64,000 nt of DNA, taken from Gloeobacter kilaueensis JS1. GTDB taxonomy: Bacteria > Cyanobacteriota > Cyanobacteriia > Gloeobacterales > Gloeobacteraceae. The first letter of the stretch is position 1. Each line of letters starts with the position of its first letter. The DNA is taken from assembly GCF_000484535.1 (NCBI RefSeq), contig NC_022600.1, positions 2,728,001 through 2,792,000 on the forward strand, written 5' to 3'. The translations under genes were made by a program, and so were the position numbers. This document shows, piece after piece, positions 31,162 to 46,991 of the stretch. Under the pieces are notes generated by a model, which was given only the letters and a program-made list of their open reading frames with translations, was not told the origin of the DNA and ran no database searches.

Positions 31162-31671
31162 TCAAAGCCGCATCTTGGCCAGGTTGGCGACAAACCTGTC
31201 CATCGTGGAGTTGAGCGGATAGGCGCTGTCCCAGCCGGGACTGCACTCACCTAGAATCGTCGTCACCCGCCGGTAGTGGTCGGGGTAGCGGGCCTGGTCG
31301 CACACGGCGGACCAGGGCGCTTTGACCACTGGCCAGAACATCGGTTTTCCCTCATTCAAAAGACTCGGTACCGAGATGATCGTCGGATCGCCGGGGCTGT
31401 CGTAACCGGCGCACAGCGGATCGAGGTTGGCGTTGTTCCAGCAGTTGGTCGTGCCCGGCTGGTTGGCTGTCGCGATCTGCGAGCGCCACTGGCTCATGGT
31501 CTCGACGCCCTGGGTGGTCGCTTCGACGTTGGCATCGCGGGTGACGCCGACGGTGGTGGTGGCGACCACCCCTCCCAGAACGGCGAGGGCGGCGAGCACG
31601 ATCACCATCTCAAAGAGGGTAAAGCCGCGAGTGTTGCGGCGCTGGAGCTGAAAATATCGGGTACGCATCAT
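31162..31671 (-). CDS. Pseudopilin/prepilin 2 of type IV pilus-like system
   Basis: A 169-residue prepilin. The class III-like N-terminus RRNTRGFTLFEMVIVLAALAV has the cleavage site Gly-Phe after a short basic leader, with Glu5 of the mature protein (FTLFE), followed by a hydrophobic helix. The Cys-containing globular part has a C-terminal Cys pair candidate. Cleavage and methylation would need a prepilin peptidase encoded elsewhere. The ATG overlaps the stop of the PilO-like gene by 4 bp. The product could be a major pilin or a minor subunit. It is last in the operon. Confidence 0.85.
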   Translation of the reverse strand: MMRTRYFQLQRRNTRGFTLFEMVIVLAALAVLGGVVATTTVGVTRDANVEATTQGVETMSQWRSQIATANQPGTTNCWNNANLDPLCAGYDSPGDPTIISVPSLLNEGKPMFWPVVKAPWSAVCDQARYPDHYRRVTTILGECSPGWDSAYPLNSTMDRFVANLAKMRL

Positions 31672-32261
31672 CTTGAAAGTTCCCTGGAAGTGCGAGTCAA
31701 AAAAGTCAGCTCGACCCGCAGTTGCACGGCACTGTCGTTGCCCTGGGGACTGGTCAGCTCGTAGGAGCGCAGGGCCACACTGCCCCGGCTGCGCTCGTGC
31801 AGGTTGTCCAGGCCAGTAAGAAAGCTCCAGATTGCCGTTTCACTGCCACTGGTGCTCAAGGTGCAGAGCAGATCGGCGGCGCTGCGGCGCTCGCGGCGGA
31901 ACTGGGCCTGTACGGTGAGGCCGTAGCGGCCAGCAAGGCGGGTGAGTAGCTGCAGCGCCTGCACCTGGCTGGTCAGCCGCAGTCCTTCTAGCTGGACAAG
32001 TTGCCCCTGCACCTGCACCAGTCGCGAGCGGAGCGCCTCAGCACTCAGACCCGCGTCCTCGGCAAGGGTGGTTTCTTGCTCGGTGGCTGTCTGGACCTGC
32101 TGGCGGAAGTAGCTGCTGAGCAAAACGGCGAACAGACCGCTTACCAGCAGCAACCAGCCCACCCAGCGGTACAGGGCCGGTCGCCTGCCGGTGCTAGCCC
32201 TTGCGCTCGCTTTGAAGTCGGCTGCCAAGGTCGATTTCGATGGGGATAGAGACCTGATCAC
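31668..32261 (-). CDS. PilO-like inner membrane protein
   Basis: A 197-residue protein with a basic N-terminus, one hydrophobic segment at about 32-52 (VGWLLLVSGLFAVLLSSYF) and a periplasmic coiled coil plus ferredoxin-like C-terminus. This bitopic layout is that of PilO/GspM, which pairs with PilN in the alignment subcomplex of type IV pili. The gene overlaps the preceding PilN-like gene by 68 bp in another frame. An overlap that long is unusual, and the real start may be further downstream. No sequence motif by itself proves PilO; the call rests on layout and context. Confidence 0.6.
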   Translation of the reverse strand: MIRSLSPSKSTLAADFKASARASTGRRPALYRWVGWLLLVSGLFAVLLSSYFRQQVQTATEQETTLAEDAGLSAEALRSRLVQVQGQLVQLEGLRLTSQVQALQLLTRLAGRYGLTVQAQFRRERRSAADLLCTLSTSGSETAIWSFLTGLDNLHERSRGSVALRSYELTSPQGNDSAVQLRVELTFLTRTSRELSR

Positions 32262-33231
32262 GGGTGCTCACTCCAAAATTGAGGTCGCCCAATTTGCCCA
32301 GCCGCTCAAAGCGGGCGAGCGACTGCAGCACGGCGAGGGGGCTGCCGGAGAGGGTCAGGCTGAGCTTGCTGCGGTCGGCAAGTTTGAGCTGCTGGATACG
32401 GGTACCTTCGCCCAGATTGCGGCGCAATAGACCGGCAAGAAGCCCACTCGGGATGTGCTTTGCGCCCGCTCTCGCAAATTCCTGGCTCTGCTGGGCATAG
32501 CGGGCCTTGACCGAGCGCAGTTCGTCCTTGATGGGCAGCAACTCTGCCTGCAGTAGCCCTGGCCCGTAGCGATCGAGGGCGATCTGGATCTGCCACCACT
32601 GGGTGGCACTCCAGCCCCACAGCCCGACGCCGACGAGCGAGAGCAAGACAGTGAGCTGCCGGGCGGTGAGGGCCACCAGGGGCAGGGCGAGCTTGCGGTG
32701 GGTGCCCAGCTCTAAGAGCGAGGCGAGGGCACCGGGATTGGCTGCCAGAGGAATCGCCAGCGAGGCGAGTTTGGCGTCGCCGCTCGCCGGAAGGGGCCGG
32801 TTGCCCAGGTAGTAGACCGGTTCGCTGTCGTCGGTCGTCAGCAACTCCACCGCCCGCGCCAGGCTGCCGGCACTGCGAGAGGCGAGGGCGTTCTGGCGCT
32901 CGAGGCCGTCGTCGCCGATGCGGGCAACCTCGATATAGGTCTGTGCAGTCGTGGACAGATCGACGATCGTGACGAAGGGCGGCAATCTGCGGGTCTTGCG
33001 CACCACCGCCCGCATGGCGGCGAGCATCAGCGGGTAGGCAAACTCCGCTCCCCGTGCGCGGGGCCTGGCCGCCTGCCACTGGACGTTGACAGGGCCGACT
33101 GCATCCTTGCGCCAGGAACCGCCCTGATCGAGCGCTTCGGTTTCGGGCATCTCCCACTGGGAGGTGGCCAGGTAACAGGCACCTCCCAGCTGGAAGCCAG
33201 TCACTTCATCTTCTAAGACAAGCAGTGCCAT
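32194..33231 (-). CDS. PilN/GspL-like inner membrane protein
   Basis: A 345-residue protein with a cytosolic N-terminal half (about 1-195), a transmembrane helix at about 200-220 (LTVLLSLVGVGLWGWSAT) and a periplasmic C-terminal domain that ends with a ferredoxin-like pattern. This is the layout of GspL or of a PilM-PilN fusion. The N-terminal part does not show clear actin-fold ATP-binding motifs. It lies between the first pilin and the PilO-like gene. The assignment is by position and architecture. Confidence 0.55.
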   Translation of the reverse strand: MALLVLEDEVTGFQLGGACYLATSQWEMPETEALDQGGSWRKDAVGPVNVQWQAARPRARGAEFAYPLMLAAMRAVVRKTRRLPPFVTIVDLSTTAQTYIEVARIGDDGLERQNALASRSAGSLARAVELLTTDDSEPVYYLGNRPLPASGDAKLASLAIPLAANPGALASLLELGTHRKLALPLVALTARQLTVLLSLVGVGLWGWSATQWWQIQIALDRYGPGLLQAELLPIKDELRSVKARYAQQSQEFARAGAKHIPSGLLAGLLRRNLGEGTRIQQLKLADRSKLSLTLSGSPLAVLQSLARFERLGKLGDLNFGVSTRDQVSIPIEIDLGSRLQSERKG

Positions 33232-33236
33232 CGGTC

Positions 33237-33740
33237 TTACGGAGCGATATAGAAGGGCGAGGCTGTCCCACCAGTGTTGGCCGGGGTCGGATACTGCCCT
33301 TCACCAAAACCAGCCGTCGGTAGATTGGCGGGGCACTGTCCATCCGGCGATGACAGACCGAGGGCAGCGGAGACACGGTTTTTGAGATTGCCGGGAACGT
33401 TGGCGTTGGCGCACAGAGCAGCCAGGGACACCTGGAGGTTTTGAGGTCGGAAGTTATCGCCGAGAATCTTCTTGAGATCCTGTACCTGCTGGTCTTCTGG
33501 CTTCTGGATGGTATTGAAGTTGTCAAAGTCGGTCTGCACACCCTTGGCAAGCACAGTGTCTCCCCAGAGGCGCATCTTCTCAAGCACCGAGACGCTCGCC
33601 TCCGCCTTTGAGTCACTGCTGAGATTCGAGAGAGTAAAAAACGAGGCGAGGGCCAGAAAGATCAACACGATCATGGCGATGGTCAGCTCGATTACTGTTA
33701 CACCGCGTCGATTGCGCCTGCGAACTTTTAGCTGCAGCAT
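33237..33740 (-). CDS. Prepilin 1 of type IV pilus-like system
   Basis: A 167-residue prepilin. RRNRRGVTVIELTIAMIVLIF has Gly-Val at the cleavage site, mature VTVIE with Glu5, and a long hydrophobic helix. The globular domain has two Cys (LCANANV and GQCPAN), a likely disulfide loop, and a C-terminus rich in Pro and Gly. It follows the GspF/PilR-like gene by 21 bp. A prepilin peptidase is not encoded nearby. Confidence 0.87.
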   Translation of the reverse strand: MLQLKVRRRNRRGVTVIELTIAMIVLIFLALASFFTLSNLSSDSKAEASVSVLEKMRLWGDTVLAKGVQTDFDNFNTIQKPEDQQVQDLKKILGDNFRPQNLQVSLAALCANANVPGNLKNRVSAALGLSSPDGQCPANLPTAGFGEGQYPTPANTGGTASPFYIAP

Positions 33741-33761
33741 GGCGATTTCCTCACAAAGAAT

Positions 33762-34856
33762 TTATTGCAGTTTGGGCAGCACGACGGAGAACTGGACGAT
33801 GAACGCTTCGAGGAAGATGACCGTCGCCGCGATCGGCAGGTAACCGAGTGCCTCAAAGAACAGGGCCGTGCTGCCTGCTCCTTTGAGGGTCTGGTCGGCC
33901 AGGGCTTCTCGACGGGCTTCGATGGCTCCCAGGCGCGCCTGGGGGTCCATCGTTTCGAGAGTGGTCAAAAAGGCGCGCATCTCGGGACGAATGCGCTGGT
34001 GGGACAGGCCGCGCCGGAGAAAGGAACGGACGCTGTTACCTTCGATCTGCATGTGACGGCCAATGCCGGCGAGGGCGGTGCCCAGAAAGGGACCGGCGAC
34101 GTTGGCGGCCCGCTCCAGGCTTTCACCGAAGAGGGTGCCCGAGCGCAACAGCACCTGCAGTGCGCCCAAAAAGCTCAACCAGCGCAGGTCGATCAGCACC
34201 TGCAAGGCAGAAATCCGGGCGGAGGCGTTCTCAAAAAATGCGAGGACGCGGGGCTGCTTGAACCCCCAGAGGCTGCCCACCAGCAGACCGGCGATGAGCA
34301 GTACCCATAGCCAGGGCCAGTCGTGGATAAAGCGGATGACGTTCGCCTGCAGGGCGAAGACCGGGTAGTGGGAGGCGTCCTTGCCTTCGATTTCTTTGAG
34401 CAGGGCACCCAGTTGGGTGGCACTCACCCCGACCAGCACGCCCTGAGAAAATAAAAAGATATACAGAATGCGCTTGAGGGGTCCGAAGACTTTGCTCTTG
34501 AGATCGACCTCGACCCGCAGAGATTTTTCGAGCACCGGCACGATGCCGTCGAGCTGACCGCGCAACTCCGCCTCGCGCACGCAACTGGTGAGCACTGCCG
34601 GGAAGCGCTTTGGAAAGCTCTGCATCGCCCGTGAGACAAAGACCTCCGAGCCCTCGCGGGCGTAGCGGAACATCAGCTGTGAGACCTCCAGCCAGGCGGG
34701 GTCGTTGCGGGCCTGGCCAATCTCGACCAGCACCCGGCAGCGGTCGATCGGTTTACCGAGGGAGGCGTTCCAGAGGTACTGCTGCAGGAGATCGAGGGTT
34801 TTGCGCTGGTTCCAGAACTTCAGCTCGAAGCGGCGCAGGGCGGGTTGGAGGGTCAT
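33762..34856 (-). CDS. PilC/GspF/PilR-type inner-membrane platform protein
   Basis: A 364-residue platform protein with three hydrophobic segments, near 150-170, 190-215 and 330-355, framing two cytosolic helical domains, as in PilC/GspF. LRSGTLFGESLERAANVAGPFLGTALAGI and AVLTSCVREAELRGQLDGIVPVLEKSL give the paired GxL-type domains. The ATG at 34856 overlaps the ATPase stop (ATGA), so the two proteins are coupled. This start removes about 115 residues of spurious upstream frame. In related systems it links ATPase to pilin assembly. It most resembles the short type IVb (PilR-like) group. Confidence 0.85.
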   Translation of the reverse strand: MTLQPALRRFELKFWNQRKTLDLLQQYLWNASLGKPIDRCRVLVEIGQARNDPAWLEVSQLMFRYAREGSEVFVSRAMQSFPKRFPAVLTSCVREAELRGQLDGIVPVLEKSLRVEVDLKSKVFGPLKRILYIFLFSQGVLVGVSATQLGALLKEIEGKDASHYPVFALQANVIRFIHDWPWLWVLLIAGLLVGSLWGFKQPRVLAFFENASARISALQVLIDLRWLSFLGALQVLLRSGTLFGESLERAANVAGPFLGTALAGIGRHMQIEGNSVRSFLRRGLSHQRIRPEMRAFLTTLETMDPQARLGAIEARREALADQTLKGAGSTALFFEALGYLPIAATVIFLEAFIVQFSVVLPKLQ

Positions 34857-36709
34857 GGTTCGACCTCCATCGTGTTTGAAGCGAGTAGACGCATCGCCTG
34901 GCGGTCCTCCTGCAGGTGGGGAGCGACTTTTTCCCAGCTCACCAGGCCACCGTGGCGGCGATCGGCGTCGAGCATCCAGGCGGCGGTGCGCCGATAGGTC
35001 TGCTGGTGCAGTTGCTCGGCGATGGCCAGTAGCTCGAAGACGGTGACGTTGGGCCGCAAAAAGTGCTCCGCCATCGCCGGGACGTAGAGCGCTTCGGTGA
35101 GGGGCACGCGGTCGGCGGTGTAGCCCTGCAGTGGTCCTTCGTTGCGGCAGGTGCCGCGCCCACAACCGGGGCCGGGACGCCGCCAGCAGCGAAACTGCCA
35201 CTGCAGTGCCTCGCGGATGTTGGCGGGGACCGCTTCGACAATGGAGCAGTGGGGACAGAGCCGGGGCAGAAGCCGCTGGCAGAAGACGTAGCCCATCGTC
35301 GAGACGAACGAGGCGATCTCAGTCTGGTTGTTGCCGGAAGCTTCGCCCCGCAGCAGGTTGCGCAGCCGCTCGGTAAAGCGCACCGCCCGGTTGGTGTGCA
35401 GGGTGGTGAGCACCAGTTTGCCGTTGGCAAAACTCAAGATCCGCTGGGCGGTAGCCCGGTCGTTGATTTCGCCAAAGATGATGTCGCCGGGGTCGTTGCG
35501 GGTGGCAAAGCGCGACCAGCCGGACCAGTCGTTTTGCTCGGTGACTTCGTACTGAAAAAGTCCTTCCACCAGCCGCTCGATCGGACACTCAAAGCTGTGG
35601 ACGTGGTGGCCGCGCCGGGCGCGCAGCAGGCCGACGTTCTGGAGAAGCATCGACTTGCCGGAATTCATCGAGCCTGTCACCATGCTGATCGCCGTCTCCA
35701 GATCGAGCAGACACAGTTGTTCGGTATCGACGATCTGTTCCATCTCAGCGAGGAGCGCCTCGGGCGCTTCTTCGCCTGTGGGCCACTGGCCCGTGATGGA
35801 GCGGTAGATGCGCGGATGCAAGTTCATCCGCTCGAGGGGGATAAAGCCGACCTGGCTGATGATCCGCAGGCCAATCTCCCAATCGCCGCCGTCGCCGGGA
35901 CCGAGGGGAGCCATCGCCAGCCGCATCGTCTGCATCTGGCCGTTGCGGTCGATCAAGGTGACGTTGCCGTACTGGATGCAGCGCTGAGAAATTTCGCAGT
36001 CCGCCGCCGAGGCGAGGCGGGCAAACATCTGGCGGCCCCGGCCCTCGTTCTCGACGCTGCCCCAGTTCAATTCGCCGATCTCATCGCTAATCAAGACGCG
36101 CTCTTCGCCGATGTGGGCGGCGACGTAGGCGCACTGGCCGCCCCTGGTAAAAAGCCGCACGTCGGAGGCTTCGTAGGCCAGAAGCACTTCGTAGAGCTGG
36201 ATGATCGCACTGTCAGCCGGAGACTCGCCCCAGCGCACGATCTTGTCGTGGGACTTGACGGAGGTGGCAGAGAGCGACGACTGGCTGCCGGCAGCGATCT
36301 GGCGGCGCAGGAGGTTAAAGAGTTCGAGTTTTTCGGGCACGAGGACCGGCAGCGCCTGCAGTTCTTCCTGCTCGGCCACCGTCAGCGGACTGACGGTCAA
36401 TACCGAGCGTCGGGCACGGTGGCAGATGACCAGATGGCCGAGGCTGGCCCAGTTCTTTTCGACCTGCTGCACCTCGACCTCTGCTAGATCTGCGCTATGG
36501 AGCACCCCATCGACGGAGAAGAACACCCCGGCGCAGTGCTCCCAGAAGGTTTGCTCGTCGCTCACCTTCTGGCAGGCCATCGCAAAGAAGCGGATGCCGC
36601 TGGTGCGGTAGAGTCCTTCGAGGACGCTTTGCTCGGCGGCGTTGGCGCTCACCTGGCGAATAAAGCGATTCACCCGGTCCTGGCTTTTAGAAAGCAGAGG
36701 GCTCTTCAT
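34853..36709 (-). CDS. PilB/GspE-type secretion ATPase, type IVb-like
   Basis: A 618-residue traffic ATPase. Walker A is GSMNSGKS (346-353); GDIIFGEIND (408-417) is the Walker B region, with an Asn where many family members have Arg; LTTLHTN (434-440) is the His box. C-terminal cysteines (C485, C488, C516, C521) suggest a zinc site as in PilB/GspE, followed by PLTEALYVP. The N-terminal 300 residues form a divergent regulatory domain. It is closest in style to IncI1 PilQ and other type IVb extension ATPases. No PilT-like retraction ATPase is in the window. Confidence 0.88.
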   Translation of the reverse strand: MKSPLLSKSQDRVNRFIRQVSANAAEQSVLEGLYRTSGIRFFAMACQKVSDEQTFWEHCAGVFFSVDGVLHSADLAEVEVQQVEKNWASLGHLVICHRARRSVLTVSPLTVAEQEELQALPVLVPEKLELFNLLRRQIAAGSQSSLSATSVKSHDKIVRWGESPADSAIIQLYEVLLAYEASDVRLFTRGGQCAYVAAHIGEERVLISDEIGELNWGSVENEGRGRQMFARLASAADCEISQRCIQYGNVTLIDRNGQMQTMRLAMAPLGPGDGGDWEIGLRIISQVGFIPLERMNLHPRIYRSITGQWPTGEEAPEALLAEMEQIVDTEQLCLLDLETAISMVTGSMNSGKSMLLQNVGLLRARRGHHVHSFECPIERLVEGLFQYEVTEQNDWSGWSRFATRNDPGDIIFGEINDRATAQRILSFANGKLVLTTLHTNRAVRFTERLRNLLRGEASGNNQTEIASFVSTMGYVFCQRLLPRLCPHCSIVEAVPANIREALQWQFRCWRRPGPGCGRGTCRNEGPLQGYTADRVPLTEALYVPAMAEHFLRPNVTVFELLAIAEQLHQQTYRRTAAWMLDADRRHGGLVSWEKVAPHLQEDRQAMRLLASNTMEVEP

Positions 36710-36716
36710 GATGGCG

Positions 36717-38219
36717 TCAGTTTAAGGGTGTGACCCCGGTCTGGGGCCGGGGGGTCAAAACGGGCTGGGGCACTGACTGGGAAAGATTTTCCGGCGCTTG
36801 CTGCGGGAAATTGTTGGGGGCGGAGCGCGGTGTCGGGTACTCCGGCGGCAGGTTGCGCGGACTTTCGGCGGCTGGGGCTTCCGCTTCGAGCAGTTCTGCC
36901 CCGGCAAGGGGCTGCTCCTGGATCACCGGCTCGATCATGATGAGCAGGCGCTGGTTTTTGACGATGTGGTTGGTGCCCCGAAAGAGGGCTCCGAGCAGGG
37001 GAATATCGCTCAACAGCGGCACGCGATATTCGATATCCGCCTCGTCGTGGCGGGTGGCACCGCCCAACAGCGCGACGCCGCCGCTGTCGAGCCGCAGGTT
37101 GGGAATATCTATCGAGTTAGTGTTGATCACCAGGTCCTGCCCCGAGCCCTGGGGATCGGAAAAATCGCCGCGCACGGTCACGGCCACCTGCTTTTTGGAG
37201 GGCAGCACGACCGGGGTGAGGTTGAGGGTGGTGCGGGCGTTGATCGCCTGGGTGGAATTGATGAGCGCTCCGTTGGAGATGATCGCCTGGGGCACCCGGA
37301 ACTGGACATTCTGGCTGATCGTGGCGGTCTCGCCGTCGGTGACGACGAGCTGTTGATCGATGAGCGTCTGCAGGGCGTTGATCTGCTGCAACAGCTGCAG
37401 CTGCAGGACGATGTTGGCAAAGCTAAAAGTAAAAGCCGAGCGGTTCGGGAGCACGCCGTAGTTGCCGAGAGGACCACTGATTGCGCCGGTAGTGGGCGTG
37501 GTGCCCGACTCGCTCGTCGCACCCCCGAGGCCCGAGTAGACCGGGTAGGGGCTGCCCCGCAGGGCACCGCCGGTGCCGAGGTCGAGGCCGAAACGGCCCA
37601 GGGCAATCGGCCTGCCGTAGGCGTCGTAGGAACCGGAGGTGAGGCCGGTGCCGAGACTTAGCCCCCGCTCCTGGGCGAGACTGTCGTTGACCAGAAGCAC
37701 CCGCAGGCGGAGCACGACCTGGGCCGGGGCACTCAACTTGTCTGAGACGTAGATGACGTTGCGGTTAGCGCGGGAGCGAAAGGCGCGAAAACCGATGATC
37801 TCCATGATTTCTTTGAGCTGGGCAAAGGGGTCCGCGCCCTGGAAGTTGTTGTAGCTGAGGCTGAACTGGCTCGGTAACGGCACGTCGAGGCGGCGGTTGC
37901 CGGCACTGGTGCTGGCGAGGCCAGGAGTGGTCGAGCTGGTGTTGAGCACCGTGTTGTTGCCCGAGACGTAGGTGCCGTCCTGCCCAGACTGGCTGCCGTC
38001 GAGGGAGGTAGCTCCAGGAGCACCGGCTGTACGACCAGCCCCGCGCTCGATGAAGATGACGGTCAGCCCCGATTGGGCGGCCAGATCCTGGATAAAATCC
38101 TTGGCGGAGACGCCCCGCTGGGCGGAGAGGTTAAAGGTATTGGGCTGGGCTGTAGCCGGTAAGCAGGCAGGCAGAGCCAGCATCGCCCCGACAAGCAACG
38201 CGCAGGTGGTCTTCTTCAT
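36717..38219 (-). CDS. Secretin, outer-membrane ring protein
   Basis: A 500-residue outer-membrane secretin. A signal peptide covers about 1-25 (ends ACLPATAQP). N-domains carry FQGADPFAQLKEIMEIIGFRAF (about 140) and the Ser/Gly/Thr-rich insert near 80-130. The secretin core at about 290-450 ends with the diagnostic VPLLSDIPLLGALFRGT and KNQRLLIMIEPVI. A Pro-rich tail follows. I chose ATG 38219, which puts the signal peptide first; the frame extends 24 codons upstream and would overlap the previous gene. It forms the outer channel through which the pilus or substrate leaves. Confidence 0.9.
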   Translation of the reverse strand: MKKTTCALLVGAMLALPACLPATAQPNTFNLSAQRGVSAKDFIQDLAAQSGLTVIFIERGAGRTAGAPGATSLDGSQSGQDGTYVSGNNTVLNTSSTTPGLASTSAGNRRLDVPLPSQFSLSYNNFQGADPFAQLKEIMEIIGFRAFRSRANRNVIYVSDKLSAPAQVVLRLRVLLVNDSLAQERGLSLGTGLTSGSYDAYGRPIALGRFGLDLGTGGALRGSPYPVYSGLGGATSESGTTPTTGAISGPLGNYGVLPNRSAFTFSFANIVLQLQLLQQINALQTLIDQQLVVTDGETATISQNVQFRVPQAIISNGALINSTQAINARTTLNLTPVVLPSKKQVAVTVRGDFSDPQGSGQDLVINTNSIDIPNLRLDSGGVALLGGATRHDEADIEYRVPLLSDIPLLGALFRGTNHIVKNQRLLIMIEPVIQEQPLAGAELLEAEAPAAESPRNLPPEYPTPRSAPNNFPQQAPENLSQSVPQPVLTPRPQTGVTPLN

Positions 38220-38229
38220 TTGTCTGGAC

Positions 38230-39093
38230 TCAATAAAGGGGCGTGACGGGTTCGGACGGTGGACGGGAAGCGGGGGCGCTCTGGGCAACATCGGCGCGCG
38301 TATCGGCGGCAGGCGGCGTACCGGCGACCATAGTCAGCTCCAGCGGGGAGCCGTCCGAGCGCCGCAGCCGGACACTGTAGCGGCCCGGCAGGGCCATCGC
38401 CGAGAGCACCGTGATTCCCTGGGGACTGGTCTGGCCCGGCATCAACTGCAGCCGCTCACCGCCGACATCGAGCAGCACCACCTGCTCGTTGCCGCCGACT
38501 AGAGCAATTTTGGCGGGGGCAGTCCCGATCTGGCCTGCCGGTACGGCAGCAGCAGGAATGGGAGGGGGCGGCAGGGCGCGCGGTGGGGGGGCGAGCGGCG
38601 GCAAGGGCGGCAGGCGCTTGAGAACAGGCGGGAGATTCTGGGTAAATTTGGCCGCCGCCGGTACGGGTGGGGGTGGCAGAGTCAGGATCGCTTTGGGCTT
38701 ATCGTCTTGAGCGAGGAGCTGATCGAAGCTGCTCTGCATCTCGCCGCCCTTGCGGACCGCTTCGCTCTGGACAGTGGCGGCTGTGCGGCGCAACTGCTGA
38801 TCGAGCGACTGGCGCTGGCGGGCCACCCACCAGTCGTTGGCGAGGGTATAGCCGCCAGCTGTCAAAAACAGCAACCCGGCAACGACGAAGATCGCCGGAC
38901 GCTGCCAGCGGGGGGTGCGCACCTGCTCGGTGTCCTCCCACTCCGGATCGGGCACCAGAGCCTCTTCGCCTGACCCGCTCGGGTCAGATTCGCCTAAAAG
39001 CGCCTCGATACTTTCGGCTGCCGCCGCTGGCTCAGGTACCGCCGGACGCTCGCGCTCAAAATGTTTTTTCCATTGCTCAAGTAAAAAGACCAT
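38230..39093 (-). CDS. PilP/GspC-like inner membrane protein
   Basis: A 287-residue bitopic protein. One TM helix lies at about 72-92 (PAIFVVAGLLFLTAGGYTLA), followed by a Pro-rich linker (150-190) and a C-terminal beta domain (AKIALVGGNEQVVLLDVGGERLQL, then MALPGRYSVRLRRSDGSPLEL). This follows the layout of PilP/GspC, which joins the inner-membrane platform to the secretin. The acidic N-terminus (about 20-60) is cytosolic. It sits directly before the secretin gene. A similar Pro-rich protein, 40869-41651, is divergent from this operon; the two may be partners or paralogues. Confidence 0.65.
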   Translation of the reverse strand: MVFLLEQWKKHFERERPAVPEPAAAAESIEALLGESDPSGSGEEALVPDPEWEDTEQVRTPRWQRPAIFVVAGLLFLTAGGYTLANDWWVARQRQSLDQQLRRTAATVQSEAVRKGGEMQSSFDQLLAQDDKPKAILTLPPPPVPAAAKFTQNLPPVLKRLPPLPPLAPPPRALPPPPIPAAAVPAGQIGTAPAKIALVGGNEQVVLLDVGGERLQLMPGQTSPQGITVLSAMALPGRYSVRLRRSDGSPLELTMVAGTPPAADTRADVAQSAPASRPPSEPVTPLY

Positions 39094-39100
39094 CGAATGC

Positions 39101-39718
39101 CTACCCCGCTATCTGAGGTGTTTTGCGAAACAAAGTTTGCTGTGGCCGCCCGTGTAGCTCCAGGCACAGAAGCGCCTCCGGATAATCGAGCGTCACCTCC
39201 CCCCAGAGCGAATCGGGCTCGCGGGGACGGTAGCGCGCCGATAGCGGCAATGGCTCGATACCCAACTGCTGCAGATAGCTGGAGCGGTACGGACCATAAC
39301 CCAGACCGAAGGTGCGCCGCTGCTGCTGCAGTCGGGCCAGGCAGCGCTGAACCCGGAGGATAATCTCTGGATCGAAGCCGGGATGCACCAGCGTCAACAG
39401 CCGAATGTCCGGCTCTCCGGGAATGGCACTCTGGTTGCTGATGAGCGCCAGTTCTTCGGAGCGGACGATGAGCAGGTCGCCCCGCTCCAGCCAGCCGGTG
39501 CGCCAGCGCTGAAAGACCTGCATCAGCAAAGTCTCGCCGCTGTAGCTGCGTACACCCACTACCCGTGCTCCGACCACTACATCCTGCAGATGAATGGCGG
39601 GTCGTTCCGGGTAAAAGCGGACCTCCGGCGCGGACCAGTCGTCCGTCCGCGCCGCCTCGACGAGGTACCAGCCCTTGTCTGCGCAGATGACCAACCGTCC
39701 GATGCGCTCTGCGAACAT
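39101..39718 (-). CDS. Unknown protein of the pilus-like operon
   Basis: A 205-residue soluble protein without signal peptide or membrane segment. It has beta-rich sequence (RLVICADKGWYLVEAAR, VVVGARVVGVRSYSGETLLMQVFQRW) and a Tyr/Arg-rich C-terminal half. I do not recognise the family. It sits between two pilus-like genes with 7 and 10 bp spacing, so it is likely part of the machine, perhaps a cytosolic regulator such as a PilM-like adapter. The latter is conjecture. Confidence 0.55.
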   Translation of the reverse strand: MFAERIGRLVICADKGWYLVEAARTDDWSAPEVRFYPERPAIHLQDVVVGARVVGVRSYSGETLLMQVFQRWRTGWLERGDLLIVRSEELALISNQSAIPGEPDIRLLTLVHPGFDPEIILRVQRCLARLQQQRRTFGLGYGPYRSSYLQQLGIEPLPLSARYRPREPDSLWGEVTLDYPEALLCLELHGRPQQTLFRKTPQIAG

Positions 39719-39728
39719 GGATCCAATC

Positions 39729-40688
39729 TCACATCGAAAGTTGAGCGTCGAACCAGGACGCCTGCCGCGCCGCCTCTGCCAGCAAAGCAGGCGTCACCCC
39801 GGCATCGGCCAGGGAGCTGAGGAGTACCTCCTCAAAATCGGGTGCTGTCGGATCGAGGCTGCCATTGTGGCTCAAAAAGTGCTGCAGTTTAGGAAATTGT
39901 CCGAGCCGCTGCCGGTGGCGCAAAACAGCTATAAACTGCTGACCCATGCCAGTCGAGGCTTGCCGGGCTGAGAGTGTGCTTCCGACCGGCTGCAGAGCTG
40001 GCCGCAATGGCAGCATCGCTGGTTCCTCGATCGCTATCTCTGGCGGCTGTGGGGGATTGATCGCTGTCGCATCGCGCCAGCCGCCACTGGCCCGTGGTTG
40101 GGCAATCGGTTCACTGAGCGGCTTTTGGGCTGCGCGCAGCTGAAGCCCTGGGGCAGGCTCTACTGCTGACTGGGAAGCCCGCTGCAGGCGCGCCACCTGT
40201 ACCGGTTTGTCGGTGCGCACTGCCACCGGCACCAGCTCGACCGCTTTTTCTGTGAGCTTTGGCGGCAGTTGCTGCTGCTTAGCGCTATCGGCGAGCATCG
40301 TCGGCTCCGGAGCCTTAGGAAGTGTCTGTGGGGTGGACGGCGCGGGGATGTTGCGAGTAGCGGCAGCGACGGACTGGTATTCGCTGCGCAACTGGGCCAG
40401 CTCGCTTCTGAGCCGCTCGATAATTGCCTGCTGCTCTTGGTCGCGGCGGCTAAACAGCTCGATGAGCCGCGCCTCACTCATCAAAAGTTCATCGCGCCGC
40501 ACCGCCTGCTCCGGCCCAAAAAAGCTGCTGGCCGGGTTGGTCTTGAGAATGCCGTGCTTTTCGAGCACTTCGAGCCAACGCGCCTGGGACGGATTGAGAT
40601 CTTTGAAGCGCGAGGGGGTAGCAGGAGGTGGCGTCTGAATACTGGCCACCTGGGGCGGCGGCGGTGGCAGCGGAAAAATCGGGGCCAT
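39729..40688 (-). CDS. Unknown Pro/Ala-rich protein, first gene of pilus-like operon
   Basis: A 319-residue protein with a Pro-rich N-terminus (MAPIFPLPPPPPQ), then LNPSQARWLEVLEKHGILKT and FFGPEQAVRRDELLMSEARL, which resembles one S-layer-homology unit. A probable coiled coil follows (about 80-115), then a low-complexity region and a helical C-terminus. No signal peptide is apparent, so a cell-surface role is doubtful despite the SLH-like pattern. It is the most promoter-proximal gene of the minus-strand operon. Function unknown. Confidence 0.5.
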   Translation of the reverse strand: MAPIFPLPPPPPQVASIQTPPPATPSRFKDLNPSQARWLEVLEKHGILKTNPASSFFGPEQAVRRDELLMSEARLIELFSRRDQEQQAIIERLRSELAQLRSEYQSVAAATRNIPAPSTPQTLPKAPEPTMLADSAKQQQLPPKLTEKAVELVPVAVRTDKPVQVARLQRASQSAVEPAPGLQLRAAQKPLSEPIAQPRASGGWRDATAINPPQPPEIAIEEPAMLPLRPALQPVGSTLSARQASTGMGQQFIAVLRHRQRLGQFPKLQHFLSHNGSLDPTAPDFEEVLLSSLADAGVTPALLAEAARQASWFDAQLSM

Positions 40689-40868
40689 AAAACCTCCTGT
40701 AAAATCACCCTACATGGTTGCAATGCAGGGATTGTGACAAAATTCCCAGCTGTGGTCAAGTGCCTGGTCAAAATTTTTACCACAAAATAGCGCCAGTCGC
40801 TCTGGGAGCCCATTCTCCGGCGGCGATCAAAATTTTGGTATGGTAGTGTCGAACCTCCCGTCTCGATC
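40689..40868. promoter_or_regulatory. Divergent control region between the two pilus-like units
   Basis: These 180 bp separate the two divergent start codons. The 10-bp sequence TCAAAATTTT occurs twice, at 40768-40777 and 40827-40836, both near AT-rich tracts in an otherwise GC-rich region; it contains the palindrome AAAATTTT. A regulator could bind both copies. A Shine-Dalgarno-like AGGAGG (reverse CCTCCT) precedes the minus-strand start. Core promoters are not clear. Confidence 0.4.
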
Positions 40869-41651
40869 ATGTATCCCTGGGAAAAGCCAGCCGACGCCGC
40901 CCCCCAGACAGCGGGGCCAGAGAACCTCGGCGATATAGGACAAACGTACCCCTGGGCGGCGGCTCCTGCCGAGCGGCCAGGGGCGCTTGCGGCTCCCGAG
41001 GAGGGAGGGATGCCGCTGCTCAGTCCGGACGAAGAGCGACTGGTTGCCCAGATCACCGCCGATGTACCACTGACCCTCGGTCAACCGGCTCTCATCCGCT
41101 ACAGTGCCTCCGAAAAGCCTGTGCGCTGGTTGCCGCTCGCGGGTGTGCTGGCAGCGACGGTGCTGTTCGGCGCGCTCATCATTCTCTGGTTGCGCCCAGC
41201 CGAGCCGCCTGTCGTCGTCGATCCAACAGCCCGACCGTCCGCCCGTCCCGCTAGTGTTGCCCCGGCCAAACCAGCCAGGCCGGCAAAACCGGTGGCTTCC
41301 CTCATCCAGCCGTCGCCGGCCAGGCCCTTCGTCGAAAAGACCCTCAAAGACGGTGGCCGGACCAATCCGTTCTACACGGCAATCCCCGCTCCCAAACCGC
41401 CACCGCCCCTCAAGCCGGTCAAACAGCCGCCCCCGCCGCCCCCGCCCCCGCCGGTGCTCAGCCTCGACAGTCTGGCTGTGTCCGGCAGTAGCCGTGCCGC
41501 CCTGATTCGCGTCACCAGCAGCCAGAGCGAACCGAGTGTTTTTGAGGTGAGCGTGGGGGATGGGGTCGCAGGCTGGACGGTCCGTTCGATTACGACCAAT
41601 CAGGTGGTTCTGGTCAAAGGCAAGCTGACCAGGGTTCTGCTCGCCCAATGA
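40869..41651 (+). CDS. PilP/GspC-like bitopic protein
   Basis: A 260-residue protein with a cytosolic N-terminus, one TM helix at about 85-105 (LAGVLAATVLFGALIILWL), a Pro/Ala-rich linker with poly-Pro (about 175-200), and a small beta domain at the end (VSVGDGVAGWTVRSITTNQV, VLVKGKLTRVLL). That end matches the homology region of GspC/PilP, which contacts the secretin N0 domain. It is divergent from the main operon and overlaps the following gene by 4 bp. Similarity is by pattern only. Confidence 0.6.
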   Translation: MYPWEKPADAAPQTAGPENLGDIGQTYPWAAAPAERPGALAAPEEGGMPLLSPDEERLVAQITADVPLTLGQPALIRYSASEKPVRWLPLAGVLAATVLFGALIILWLRPAEPPVVVDPTARPSARPASVAPAKPARPAKPVASLIQPSPARPFVEKTLKDGGRTNPFYTAIPAPKPPPPLKPVKQPPPPPPPPPVLSLDSLAVSGSSRAALIRVTSSQSEPSVFEVSVGDGVAGWTVRSITTNQVVLVKGKLTRVLLAQ

Positions 41652-42265
41652 AGCGGCTGCTGCCGGCGCTGATCTTTTTGGTCTGTGGAGCCACTCGCGC
41701 CTGGGGTGCGCCGCTGACGCAAATTGAATCGCTGGACGGCAACAAAGAAAAAGAAAAAATCATCCGCATCTCCGCCCAGGGACCACTGCCCTTTGAGGTG
41801 CTCGAAAAATCCAGCTCGACGCTGGTGCTATTTTTGCCACGCGCCGAGTTGGGCTACGTCTCGACGCAGCTCTCGCTCTCGCCCTTTGCGGATATCTTTC
41901 TTGAACAGAACCCGGCAGGTGTGCGGGTCCAGTTTCAGAACCTGAAGCTGCGCTTTCGAGTCGCTGCAGGCCAGAAACCCGGCACGATCGATCTCACCCT
42001 GGTTCTACCGCCCGACCCGCCTCCCAACCCGGCAGCCGCTTCTTCGCTAAATAGCAGACAACAACCCACCAGTATCCAGCAGCGGGGGTTGGGTGGGACA
42101 CCGTCAAATACCAATCCGACCGTTGGTTCACCGGACAATGCCTCGGTGGTGACCCCCGACATTGCCTCAAAACCGGGCAGCGTCTCAGACGACGCAGAAG
42201 AAGACCCCGACCCCCCCGGACCGGGCGTCAAGCCGGTGCCGCCTCGGCCCACTCCACCACCTTGA
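41648..42265 (+). CDS. Exported AMIN-like protein
   Basis: A 205-residue exported protein with a signal peptide (about 1-22, ends ATRAWGAP) and a beta-rich domain at about 28-125: IIRISAQGPLPFEVLEKSSS and LRFRVAAGQKPGTIDLTLVLP. The pattern resembles AMIN/secretin-N-type domains that bind peptidoglycan. The C-terminal third is Pro/Ser-rich and likely unstructured. It is coupled to the preceding PilP/GspC-like gene by ATGA. It may anchor the secretin in the wall, which is inference. Confidence 0.6.
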   Translation: MKRLLPALIFLVCGATRAWGAPLTQIESLDGNKEKEKIIRISAQGPLPFEVLEKSSSTLVLFLPRAELGYVSTQLSLSPFADIFLEQNPAGVRVQFQNLKLRFRVAAGQKPGTIDLTLVLPPDPPPNPAAASSLNSRQQPTSIQQRGLGGTPSNTNPTVGSPDNASVVTPDIASKPGSVSDDAEEDPDPPGPGVKPVPPRPTPPP

Positions 42266-43032: not shown

Positions 43033-43164
43033 AATTTAGAATGATTCCCGAGTGAGTGACCCTAAAAAACTGAACTTGATTTCCTAGGATTCGCTTCCCA
43101 AGCGGATCTCTCTGTCACGTACTTATTAGGGCGAAGAAGCTACGATGCCAGGATCGACGAAGAT

Positions 43165-43293
43165 TACCGCGCTATTCTGCTGACTAACGTTCAGCAAGGA
43201 GGCCACATCCTGCACCGCCGCACCCTGGTCAATCTGTTGACGGGCATGGGCGACCTGAGCAGCGGATGGCTTTTGCTTCGGCCCAATCTTCAC
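43165..43293 (-). pseudogene. Resolvase 3'-end remnant, direct repeat copy A
   Basis: The minus strand codes for KIGPKQKPSAAQVAHARQ and QIDQGAAVQDVASLLNVSQQ, the DNA-binding end of a serine resolvase. The same 129 bp recur at 44054-44182 with ten mismatches (about 92% identical). The catalytic domain is missing, so it is a remnant. It abuts the 3' end of the ParE-like gene. Confidence 0.8.
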
Positions 43294-43601
43294 TGACGGC
43301 CTTCTAAAAGGCGTCGCATATTTCGCCTGCCGTGCAGAACGGCGATGATTTGCAAGGGCTCGGTCTCCGAGCGGTAAACGATTGCATAGGAGGGATAGCG
43401 CGTCAGCGTCCAAAAGCGCAGCGGCAGCACCGTCAAATCGGGCCGCGTATGGCCGCGCCCTGGGCCTGCCGCAAGAAACGCGCAGGCATCGAAAATCGCC
43501 TGCTCTACGCGGTCGGCGGCCTGGTCGTCATCCTCGGTGATGGCGGACCAGATATCGAAAATATCGGCTTGCGCTAAGGGCGTGAGAACGTAATCGCTCA
43601 T
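43290..43601 (-). CDS. parE: ParE/RelE-superfamily toxin
   Basis: A 103-residue protein with the ParE pattern: LTPLAQADIFDIWSAI near the N-terminus, an internal AGPGRGHTRPDL (about 52-63), and FWTLTRYPSYAIVYR followed by IIAVLHGRRNM. ParE-type toxins poison DNA gyrase; RelE relatives cut mRNA, and the sequence does not separate these. It follows the antitoxin gene with a 4-bp ATGA overlap. The end lies in the resolvase-derived repeat A. Confidence 0.88.
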   Translation of the reverse strand: MSDYVLTPLAQADIFDIWSAITEDDDQAADRVEQAIFDACAFLAAGPGRGHTRPDLTVLPLRFWTLTRYPSYAIVYRSETEPLQIIAVLHGRRNMRRLLEGRQ

Positions 43602-43879
43602 CGCCTGGGCAACCGCCCCTCGCGCCAGTTCGCTTTCATCGTTTGCAGTTCGCGGCGGACTTGGGCGCTGTCGGTCAACTCTCCGTTCTCGGCCTGCCGG
43701 TAGCCTTCCTCGACGTGCGCGGCTAGGGCGCGGCGCTCTGCGTCGGTCCAGCTTTCTTCCGCATCCTGCGCTTCGAGGGCGCGGCGCACCACGTCTTCGG
43801 CATCGGCGTAGCCGCCGCCGGACAGGCGCTTGTTGATAAGTGTCTCAAGGTCGGGCGGAAGGTTCAATTGCATCGCCAA
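43598..43879 (-). CDS. parD: ParD-like antitoxin
   Basis: A 93-residue ribbon-helix-helix antitoxin. MQLNLPPDLETLINKRLSGG matches the N-terminal RHH pattern of ParD, and YADAEDVVRRALEAQDAEE is the second helix. The acidic, unstructured C-terminus would wrap the toxin. It is first in the operon and overlaps the toxin start by 4 bp. The pair is expected to autoregulate by binding its promoter in the adjacent 43880-44050 segment. Confidence 0.87.
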   Translation of the reverse strand: MAMQLNLPPDLETLINKRLSGGGYADAEDVVRRALEAQDAEESWTDAERRALAAHVEEGYRQAENGELTDSAQVRRELQTMKANWREGRLPRR

Positions 43880-44053: not shown

Positions 44054-44586
44054 GACCGCGCTGTTCTGCTGACTGGCGTTCAGCAAGGCGGCCACATCCT
44101 GCACCGCTGCACCCTGGTCAATCTATTGACGGGCATAGGCGACCTGAGCAGCGGATAGCTTATGCTTCGGCCCAAACTTCACCCCCCGCTTCTTCGCCGC
44201 CTTCACTCCGGCCTGCGTGCGCTCGGAGATTACGCTGCGCTCCAGCTCCGCCAGCACAGCGAGCATGTGCCATGTGGCCCACCCGGTCGGCGTGGTCGTC
44301 TCGATGTGCTCAGTCAGGCTTTGGAACTGCACGCGGCGCTGCTGCAGCTCGTCCAGCATGGTGATCAAGTCGCGCACACTCCGCCCCAGCCGGTTGAGCT
44401 TCCAAACAATCAGCGTATCGCCATGCTCGAGCACTTTAAGGCACCGTTGCAGGGCCGGCGCTTGCTCGTGGCTCCTGATAGTCCATCGTCCTTGTAAACC
44501 TTCTGACAGTCGGCCCGCTCGAGCGCTGTCAGTTGTAGGGCTGGGGTCTGGTCGTCGGTCGAGACGCGGGCATGGCCGTAAATCAT
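44054..44586 (-). pseudogene. Serine recombinase (resolvase) pseudogene with direct repeat copy B
   Basis: From ATG 44586 the frame reads MIYGHARVSTDDQTPALQL, a resolvase N-terminus with the catalytic Ser in RVSTDDQ. A single base is lost near 44455, after GLSGATSKR, so the remaining body (QRCLKVLEHGDTLIVWKLNR, LIVWKLNRLGRSVRDLITML) is in another frame. A TAG also cuts the C-terminal DNA-binding part after VAYARQ. The reading continues in frame after the TAG (IDQGAAVQDVAALLNASQQ) to about 44054. Two lesions mean the enzyme is inactive. Its 3' 129 bp are repeated at 43165-43293. Confidence 0.85.
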
Positions 44587-44760
44587 GCCTGCAGTGTGAG
44601 ACAGACTTATGCAACAGGCTACGCCATGATTTCATAGGCTTCTAGCCACGTTGCATAACTTACCCTTCGTGAGACTACCATGGTATCTACCTAGCCGCGT
44701 CTCAGATTAACAAGTGAAATACAACTATCCTCCGTAAAACTCAGTAGGAGTTTCTAGCCC

Positions 44761-46224
44761 GTGAACGAACAGCAAATTCAACCCATCGTTCTTACAGATG
44801 AAAAGCAAATTCAGCTTATTACTCCAAATGATCTTGCTGTTGAGACCTCTGTTTTTGTTTCATATCTGGAACACTTAAATCTACCAACTGATAACATTAT
44901 TGCTCCCAATAATGAGCGCAAAATCGTAGCTTCTAATCTGCCTGACTTCTTGTTTTCGCTCCCCCAAGAATCAAAGAGAGACGCTCGTTATTTATCGAAG
45001 TTTGTTGGGGCTACGGCAATTGGATTGTTTGATGCTGCCCTAAACTATGTTTGGAATGAAGTTGTCGTAAATTTGAGAAAGAAAGCCTCAATCTATGGAA
45101 TAGATTTATTTTTCGATGCGGCAATTGGCGGCAAAAATAGAGATGAATACAAAGACGAGAATGATCTAGGAGGACTGAAAGACATTGTTCTTCTAAACAC
45201 ATGCCTTAAGCTAGAACTTGTCTCTGGTACAGTCCATCGAAAGCTAGACTATATACTTACAATGCGAAATGAGGTTGCTGCTTCTCATCCAAACGTTGAG
45301 AGTATTGGAGGATTCGAATTACTTGGGTGGTTACAAACTTGTATAACGGAAGTCCTACAAGATCCTCTTTCAGAATCAGCTATTAAAATTAAATTGCTTG
45401 TAGACAATCTTAAATCTATGAGCGATGTCATAGATGATGTGACGCTCGCTCGTGTCGCCGAGCAGCTAAGACATCTTTCTCTACCTCACATTCACAACCT
45501 TCTAGTAACCATTTTCGGTATGTTTGTTTCCCCTAGTTCAGAGCAAGTTTTACGCAGAAATATTTCCAAAATTGCTCCATTTGTCTGGAACCATGCCACC
45601 CCTCAGGTTAAATACAATATCGGTTCAAAAATCGATGGTTATAGGACCAACCTCAACAATGAAAAGCTTGAAAGGGGTGTTGAGTTCTTAACAATCGTTG
45701 GCGGTCACATGTATGAAAGCATACCTGCAAAAACTATTGCATTAGAGCATCTCGCAGATCAGCTCGAAGAAAAACACGAAGGTCGAGATAACTTCTATAA
45801 CGAGCCAGCTGTTATGAAAGAAATTTTGAAATACTGTAAATCTTCAACGGATATCCCTACAGAAGTTCTTCCGAAGTTAGTCAGGATAGTCCTACGTTGT
45901 CGTCTAGGTCGTGGATTGAGTTACCAGAGTGGTGTTAGTCCCGGAGGTCTTCCTTTATATGATCAGTTTCTAAAGCTTCTTGACGACAATGGGGTTGCTT
46001 TTTGTATAGCTGCTCTTTTTTCGCCTGAAATAAGTTCGAAGTTGGAAAATTCAATTTGTCAAAAACATTTAAAGGCTGTTTTAGAAAACCTTCGATCAAT
46101 CGTCATATCGGAGCGATTACGGGATAGCATTGACTTTTTGCTCAAAGATGTCCCAAAAGCATATCTTGCTAAGAATGTCAAGGAATTTCGAGAATTGACA
46201 GCAAATTACATCCAATGGCGTTGA
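44761..46224 (+). CDS. Large HEPN-motif protein, unknown function
   Basis: A 487-residue soluble protein starting at GTG after TAGGAGTTT. Near residues 160-176 the sequence HRKLDYILTMRNEVAASH holds R169-N-E-V-A-A-S-H176, the Rx4-6H active-site motif of HEPN ribonucleases, in a helix as expected. The rest is mainly helical, with a C-terminal part (about 235-487) that could bind a partner. Composition is AT-richer than its flanks. It converges on a second HEPN-motif gene. HEPN proteins often act as toxins or in abortive infection. I know of no named family for the full length. Confidence 0.65.
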   Translation: MNEQQIQPIVLTDEKQIQLITPNDLAVETSVFVSYLEHLNLPTDNIIAPNNERKIVASNLPDFLFSLPQESKRDARYLSKFVGATAIGLFDAALNYVWNEVVVNLRKKASIYGIDLFFDAAIGGKNRDEYKDENDLGGLKDIVLLNTCLKLELVSGTVHRKLDYILTMRNEVAASHPNVESIGGFELLGWLQTCITEVLQDPLSESAIKIKLLVDNLKSMSDVIDDVTLARVAEQLRHLSLPHIHNLLVTIFGMFVSPSSEQVLRRNISKIAPFVWNHATPQVKYNIGSKIDGYRTNLNNEKLERGVEFLTIVGGHMYESIPAKTIALEHLADQLEEKHEGRDNFYNEPAVMKEILKYCKSSTDIPTEVLPKLVRIVLRCRLGRGLSYQSGVSPGGLPLYDQFLKLLDDNGVAFCIAALFSPEISSKLENSICQKHLKAVLENLRSIVISERLRDSIDFLLKDVPKAYLAKNVKEFRELTANYIQWR

Positions 46225-46418
46225 ATATAATGACCATAAAACAATACATCTTTGGAATCTATGATACCAGTTTGCTAAATAGCTGCGCGGCATAAAGCCT
46301 GGAGTAGCCACGGATACCCTGTCAAATTCTCCGTCGTTTCCGCATGCCGATGGTACTAAGCACATAATTTTCTCTGTTTTCTTTTTTCTAGGATTATCTA
46401 ATGGAAAATTCTGCCGTG

Positions 46419-46991
46419 CTACTTGGATTCTAGAATAATTTCTCTATAGTAATAGCCCTCTTCTTTTTCATTTCCAAGCGCGATATCTAGCATCACCTGA
46501 AGAGCCATCATTGAACCAGGGATGATGCTTTCAGAGTCAGAGCCTTTTAAACCAGGATCGATAGCAATTTCAAAGTTAATTATCCACCATTTCTCTATTT
46601 TGGAAAACAGACATACTAGCTTAACAAACTTTGATTCGTCCAAATTGTTTCCAGAATGAATAACATAATTAATGGCTCTATGTACTAACTCATTTCTGTA
46701 TTTCCTTATGCAACGAAAATCCTCAAAGTCTTGATTGTCTATAGCTTCAAATTTTTTAAACCAAAGCATTGAAGCAGTCAACGCATTTTTTTCCTTGTCC
46801 AGCAATAGAACCTCACGTTTGTAGTCTTCCTTCGCTGAAATCGACAACTCTTTTCCGGAGCTAAAAATTTCTTTTGGCATTTCAACAACACGTTCTCTGA
46901 AAAATTCAAAAACTGTAATGAAAAGAGAAAGTGAGATTAGATTCCCTCTTAGCGTTTCGGGATGCAAAAACCTTTCCCAAGATGTAGGCAT
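46419..46991 (-). CDS. Small HEPN-motif protein, unknown function
   Basis: A 190-residue, AT-rich gene on the minus strand. At 92-105 the sequence FRCIRKYRNELVHR contains R99-N-E-L-V-H104, an Rx4H motif inside a helix, as in HEPN nucleases of the MazF-independent and defence-associated groups. TM-like residues near 18-28 (LISLSLFITVFEF) may be only a buried helix. It lies 194 bp from the convergent 487-residue HEPN gene. I see no antitoxin next to it. Function is inferred from the motif. Confidence 0.6.
   Translation of the reverse strand: MPTSWERFLHPETLRGNLISLSLFITVFEFFRERVVEMPKEIFSSGKELSISAKEDYKREVLLLDKEKNALTASMLWFKKFEAIDNQDFEDFRCIRKYRNELVHRAINYVIHSGNNLDESKFVKLVCLFSKIEKWWIINFEIAIDPGLKGSDSESIIPGSMMALQVMLDIALGNEKEEGYYYREIILESK

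Follow-up and report, generated by a model that had tools for sequence, protein, structure and literature searches.

Described type IV filament systems and the Gloeobacter locus

According to a 2025 review, the type IVa pilus (T4aP) is the only type IV filament (TFF) system of cyanobacteria (PMC12288463), and the cyanobacterial pilMNOQ cluster has been described in a review as lacking pilP. In the survey of Denise et al., as summarized in a review, generic TFF systems were assigned to only two cyanobacterial species, both belonging to Gloeobacter (PMC7690835); as far as the available passages of the survey go, its generic model is defined by an ATPase, a platform protein and a prepilin encoded in one cluster (PMC6668835). 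Here we describe a cluster of ten genes from Gloeobacter kilaueensis JS1, located in a window of 64,000 nucleotides that corresponds to positions 2,728,001–2,792,000 of the 4,724,791-bp genome (coordinates below are window positions). The cluster encodes the T2SSE-type ATPase, the platform protein and the class III prepilin of the generic model, and a secretin as well, and it was probably counted in the survey but left unclassified (PMC6668835). The generic TFF is a catch-all class, and the parts of the Gloeobacter systems, their range within Gloeobacterales and any resemblance to a type II secretion system (T2SS) are not given in the passages of the survey that were available. We found no paper describing the cluster.

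On balance, we favour with modest confidence the view that the ten genes constitute a complete, vertically inherited TFF machine, separate from the T4aP and laid out like a reduced T2SS (Gsp/Xcp/Pul/Eps). More tentatively, it may represent a distinct, so far unclassified filament class specific for Gloeobacterales, which would give these bacteria a T2SS-like secretion route absent in the other cyanobacteria searched. Gloeobacter is the earliest-branching cyanobacterium, and this second, very divergent machine has a secretion-like layout that is reportedly absent from cyanobacteria. The cluster offers a defined gene set for tests of a separate machine that a root lineage devoid of thylakoids has kept in addition to a complete T4aP; as a deep branch of the TFF family, it could also help to order the origin of T2SS, T4aP and the type IVb pilus.

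Composition and conservation of the ten-gene cluster

The genes of the cluster (31162–40688, minus strand) are tightly packed, with overlaps of at most 68 bp and gaps of at most 21 bp, and are read in the direction J, I, H, G, F, E, D, C, B, A. They encode an ATPase, a platform protein, a secretin, two prepilins, three membrane connectors and two soluble proteins; the proteins B, C, H, I and J received no name from Pfam or NCBIfam, and a PHROGs search returned nothing useful. The initial annotation, which had been made from the sequence alone, described ten closely spaced minus-strand genes and a divergent pair beside them. All twelve reading frames are present, and the order of the ten recurs in five other genomes. 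The annotation likewise named two prepilins, an ATPase, a secretin and a platform protein, which are supported by our matches to N_methyl, T2SSE and Secretin and by a profile of the platform protein that finds PilC.

Gene F (34853–36709, minus strand) encodes a T2SSE assembly ATPase of 618 amino acids (aa) (Pfam T2SSE, 3.6e-22) with the Walker A motif GSMNSGKS, a GEIND motif and a four-cysteine motif. It overlaps by 4 bp with gene E, the corrected coordinates of which are 33762–34856 (minus strand), encoding a GspF/PilC-type platform protein of 364 aa; the HofC/PilC match of this protein is weak (4e-5), but a PDB search with its own profile recovers PilC (3jc8) at 2.3e-11. The secretin G (36717–38219, minus strand; 500 aa; Pfam Secretin, 8.8e-29) carries a signal peptide and a short N-terminal part, and its start lies most likely at 38219 (MKKTTCALLVG...) rather than at 38291. 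Prepilin A (31162–31671, minus strand; 169 aa; RG/FTLFEMV, the slash marking the cleavage site) matches N_methyl above the cut-off (3.5e-6), and prepilin D (33237–33740, minus strand; 167 aa; RRG/VTVIELT) just under it (6.8e-4), with conservation in five orthologues. The leaders of A and D count 16 and 13 aa in the window and 6 to 13 aa in the orthologues, and the first residues after them are F and V.

The two soluble proteins are encoded at the upstream end. Protein I (39101–39718, minus strand; 205 aa) is conserved and was aligned with its counterpart L041:5514-6221 in a more distant member of Gloeobacterales, G007; its structure model is poor, and the top match (Z 5.5, to ASKHA/RNase H-like folds) is not interpretable. 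Protein J (39729–40688, minus strand; 319 aa) combines an SLH-like motif (SLH matches with E 0.021 and 0.22, both below the cut-off) with a coiled coil and a C-terminus that is helical; its hydropathy profile shows neither a signal peptide nor a transmembrane (TM) helix. Its orthologues are encoded by all six Gloeobacteraceae and by G007 (L041:6745-7278).

By tblastn, G002, G003 and G004 each contain all ten genes, arranged as in the window. The order is also kept in G005, up to a contig end that falls inside the cluster, and in G001 (presumably Gloeobacter violaceus PCC 7421), where the secretin gene is interrupted. Across these five other Gloeobacteraceae genomes the orthologues are 35–82% identical, the ATPase being the more conserved (76–81%) and I and J the less so (35–63%). 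The ratio of nonsynonymous to synonymous substitution rates (dN/dS) is 0.06–0.08 for the ATPase and platform genes between G001 and G003, and 0–0.30 for all five genes tested, where computable. Orthologues kept in one order under purifying selection imply a maintained, vertically inherited unit and not chance reading frames. G007, which we take to be Anthocerotibacter (panamensis), holds a rearranged and divergent copy of the cluster, with an ATPase 28–31% identical over ~560 aa, a secretin 31–33% identical, a platform protein, and counterparts of B, C, H, I and J in another order.

The range appears to end there. G006 and G008, from the same order, lack the ATPase of the cluster; a profile of this ATPase, run against 386 genomes across the phylum at E <= 1e-35, matched the genome of the window alone; a pattern scan across 84,980 species yielded full-length matches from three Gloeobacteraceae records only; and no relative of the ATPase was found on viral contigs.

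Two of the relatives carry additional genes within the cluster. In G001, a 12.8-kb element, L136:1102-13902 (G001:C1, about 4,093,301–4,106,101), interrupts the secretin gene. It encodes a VapE/DUF3854 protein and, at the left end, a serine recombinase; AAGC is all that its junctions have in common, and the corresponding site of G003 is uninterrupted. Excision of the element might turn the secretin on. In turn, L041:14298-18455 within the G007 cluster encodes three similar-looking proteins of 341–453 aa with signal-peptide-like starts, together with several prepilin-like genes, all of which are missing from Gloeobacter; the extra proteins are possible substrates or filament parts.

Separate ancestry and a probable type II-like layout

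The same genome encodes the canonical pilus in a split form. A pilB-T-C locus, which includes PilT, lies at 2.287 Mb, while the region 1.2567–1.2617 Mb encodes the sole prepilin peptidase, PilM, PilN, PilO, a PilP-like frame and PilQ. One prepilin peptidase per genome was also the count in each of the four genomes examined for it. As a complete T4aP is encoded elsewhere, the window cluster is an additional machine, and the two coexist in the genomes tested. That a retraction ATPase and a prepilin peptidase are missing from the cluster, as had been noted at the outset, holds true; both are encoded elsewhere in the genome. A split canonical pil cluster with the same genes would have spoken against a second machine; a canonical split cluster does exist, but the window genes are not part of it.

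Some features of the canonical loci deserve mention. PilM and PilN form a single 588-aa frame in the window genome (L163:5213-6979, about 1.2572–1.2590 Mb; Pfam 3.5e-38 and 1.9e-15), a GspL-like fusion, and are separate genes in G001, G003 and G007. Gloeobacter and Anthocerotibacter-type genomes have a small PilP-like gene in the interval from pilO to pilQ (L163:7662-8231, L148:2044-2535 and L145:2025-2498); it has no Pfam PilP match, and the call follows from its position and the look of its sequence.

Like the cyanobacterial T4aP (pilB-T-C, pilMNOQ), the cluster has an ATPase, platform protein, secretin and prepilins, all homologous, but it is devoid of PilM and PilT, and its core proteins branch elsewhere. 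In the ATPase tree, the Gloeobacteraceae copies and that of G007 form one clade (100/98); the cyanobacterial PilB clade (100/95) includes PilB of Gloeobacter itself and excludes the window ATPase, and a second Gloeobacter ATPase falls into another clade. The window secretin groups with that of G007 (100/99), separately from PilQ (100/99) and from the secretin of a third gene set of the genome (100/99), and the platform protein is likewise united with its G007 counterpart (99/97), apart from PilC of Gloeobacter. As all three core trees unite Gloeobacteraceae with G007, the ATPase, platform protein and secretin share one history. The ATPase trees have long branches, T2SS references are few, and the deep branching is poorly supported. 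In approximately unbiased (AU) tests, joins of the window secretin to PilQ (p 0.25), GspD (0.11) and a wider plasmid/type IVb-like set (0.11) were not rejected. A recent duplication of PilB or PilQ was considered as a source of the cluster and dropped, since the ATPase and secretin trees place the cluster copies apart. The initial annotation had expected the ATPase outside the standard cyanobacterial clade and had suggested a second, specialised machine of early-branching cyanobacteria; the trees, in which the secretin and platform protein also lie apart from PilQ and PilC, the range and the separate T4aP agree with it on both counts.

The order of gsp operons is C-D-E-F-G-L-M. Genes H-G-F-E-D-C-B of the cluster reproduce it, provided that H is GspC-like, C GspL-like and B GspM-like; the D-E-F-G part is firm, and the C, L and M equivalents were assigned by architecture and fold. 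H (38230–39093, minus strand; 287 aa) has the architecture of a GspC/PilP-type inner-membrane connector, with one TM helix, a proline-rich linker and a C-terminal domain. According to its model, C (32194–33231, minus strand; 345 aa) appears to join an RNase H/actin-like stretch in the cytoplasm, by way of one TM helix and a coiled coil, to a ferredoxin-like domain in the periplasm. Among 967 Foldseek matches of C, the periplasmic domains of the GspL proteins XcpY, PulL and EpsL rank 1st, 3rd and 29th (probability 0.99–1.00, E > 0.001), and a second structural comparison gives Z scores of 9.9 for PulL, 9.6 for PilO, 8.7 for EpsL, 8.2 for XcpY and 7.8 for PulM; residues 79–162, before the TM helix, match actin-like/RNase H-like folds (Z 5–6). 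The modelled fold thus points to the GspL/GspM/PilO kind, GspL being favoured by the domain layout rather than proven. B (31668–32261, minus strand; 197 aa, one TM helix) is a putative GspM/PilO-like connector by alignment with its G007 counterpart, and it is in that counterpart only that T2SSM_b is matched (E 5e-4, 20.3 bits, cut-off 21.7). The likeness to T2SS lies in the apparent gene order, the predicted GspL-type domain layout, the T2SSM_b match in a relative and the lack of a retraction ATPase.

We infer from this layout that the machine may export proteins. Both prepilins would be trimmed by the one prepilin peptidase of the genome, which would also serve the T4aP. The GspL/GspM-like pair (C and B) would dock a hexamer of the ATPase, and this hexamer would turn the platform protein, so that prepilins are extruded into a short periplasmic filament. 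The GspC-like H would connect the base with the secretin; there, the filament could push folded exported proteins outwards, or a short pilus could emerge. I and J may serve as accessory proteins on the cytoplasmic side. The lack of a retraction ATPase in the set fits such one-way, piston-like work.

Several observations weigh against a T2SS-like machine of separate origin. AU tests kept joins of the window ATPase to PilB (p 0.13), to the second cyanobacterial ATPase (0.17) and to IncI PilQ (0.32). The gsp order is not seen in the G007 cluster. Confidence in the model of C is low (mean predicted local distance difference test score, pLDDT, of 47, with blocks in the last 80 residues mostly at 53–71), and PilO fits it nearly as well as GspL. 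None of the window proteins H, C and B matches a Pfam T2SS family; profiles of C, B and H retrieved nothing from the PDB but chance matches (beta-lactamases and others), and HHalign comparisons of C, B, I and H with small sets of GspL, PilM and PilN reached a probability of 0.6% at best, column-shuffled controls reaching up to 0.5%. Unlike T2SS, the cluster also borrows its prepilin peptidase, includes two extra proteins, I and J, and has two prepilins instead of five, a count that covers the cluster only, as minor prepilins elsewhere were not searched for. With two prepilins, we do not claim T2SS membership, but propose that the machine works like a reduced T2SS.

Alternatives to the proposed reduced T2SS-like machine

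The most serious competitor, possible though in our judgement unlikely, is a second surface pilus, lineage-specific and non-retracting, which would serve adhesion instead of secretion. T2SS and pili have all core parts in common, the FTLFEMV start of prepilin A is classical, PilO nearly equals GspL as a match for C, and the NCBIfam models of PilQ and GspD score about equally on the secretin. What tips us towards the secretion-like layout is the gsp-like order and the T2SSM_b match; moreover, the set includes no retraction ATPase, and no adhesin-like tip protein was recognised within the cluster. A dedicated competence pilus for DNA uptake is improbable: the core is common to competence machines as well, and a review lists predicted DNA-uptake genes in the Gloeobacter lineage (PMC12288463), but the canonical T4aP with PilT, which normally does DNA uptake, is present, and no competence gene was recognised adjoining the cluster.

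The affinity to IncI1-group type IVb pili (PilL-PilV) proposed in the initial annotation is highly improbable and is not supported. These pili share with the cluster a short platform protein, a secretin and an ATPase of the same superfamily; the ATPase can be placed as a relative of IncI PilQ in the AU test, and the platform protein joins IncI PilR weakly (81/66). The motifs GSMNSGKS and GEIND, on which the proposal leaned, are indeed present and invariant across five ATPase orthologues in the alignment, but the Walker A of IncI PilQ is GPTGSGKS and numerous unrelated PilT-like ATPases also contain NSGK, so that the motif argument for IncI1 fails. The secretin lies across a 96/98 split from IncI PilN, and a sister position to PilN and Rhodovibrio was weakly rejected (p-AU 0.027). 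In G004, the orthologue has a signal peptide (MHKSVLLLAAAGLVFAFANPLAFA) devoid of cysteine, so that the residue by which a lipoprotein secretin would be recognised is not conserved; the PilO2, PilP, PilM and lytic transglycosylase Pfam families are all unmatched in the cluster, and no PilV was recognised. Least credible of all is a decayed remnant devoid of function. The split secretin of G001 and the absence of the machine from the relatives G006 and G008 would suit it, but the window genome and G002–G004 have intact genes, and dN/dS stays within the low range given above.

The divergent pair, the third gene set and other window features

Two plus-strand genes follow the cluster: K (40869–41651), encoding a GspC/PilP-like protein, and L (41648–42265), encoding its partner, an exported AMIN-like protein. 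Both genes are real, but the proposal that they are parts of the machine is not supported: the pair adjoins the cluster only in Gloeobacter, whereas G004 and G005 have it at loci of its own, and K and L were dropped as components. The third set, at 3.727 Mb, pairs an ATPase of the GspE-like type with a secretin of the STN/AMIN-like type, and the G006 and G008 versions have a relative of K placed between these two genes. Given this position and the lack of linkage in G004 and G005, K and L most likely belong to the third set. The set is conserved in Gloeobacterales (L043:4954-10829, L159:3970-8728 and L160:4648-8976), with no platform gene seen beside it.

Further downstream, a resolvase gene (44123–44635) has its C-terminal stretch repeated as a broken copy at 43126–43413, and genes encoding a ParE-type toxin (43290–43601) and its likely antitoxin (43598–43879) are found between the two. 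They are followed by a G+C-poor island (44761–46991; 0.47 vs. about 0.61 around it), which encodes a 487-aa protein with no Pfam match and, on the opposite strand, a 190-aa frame.

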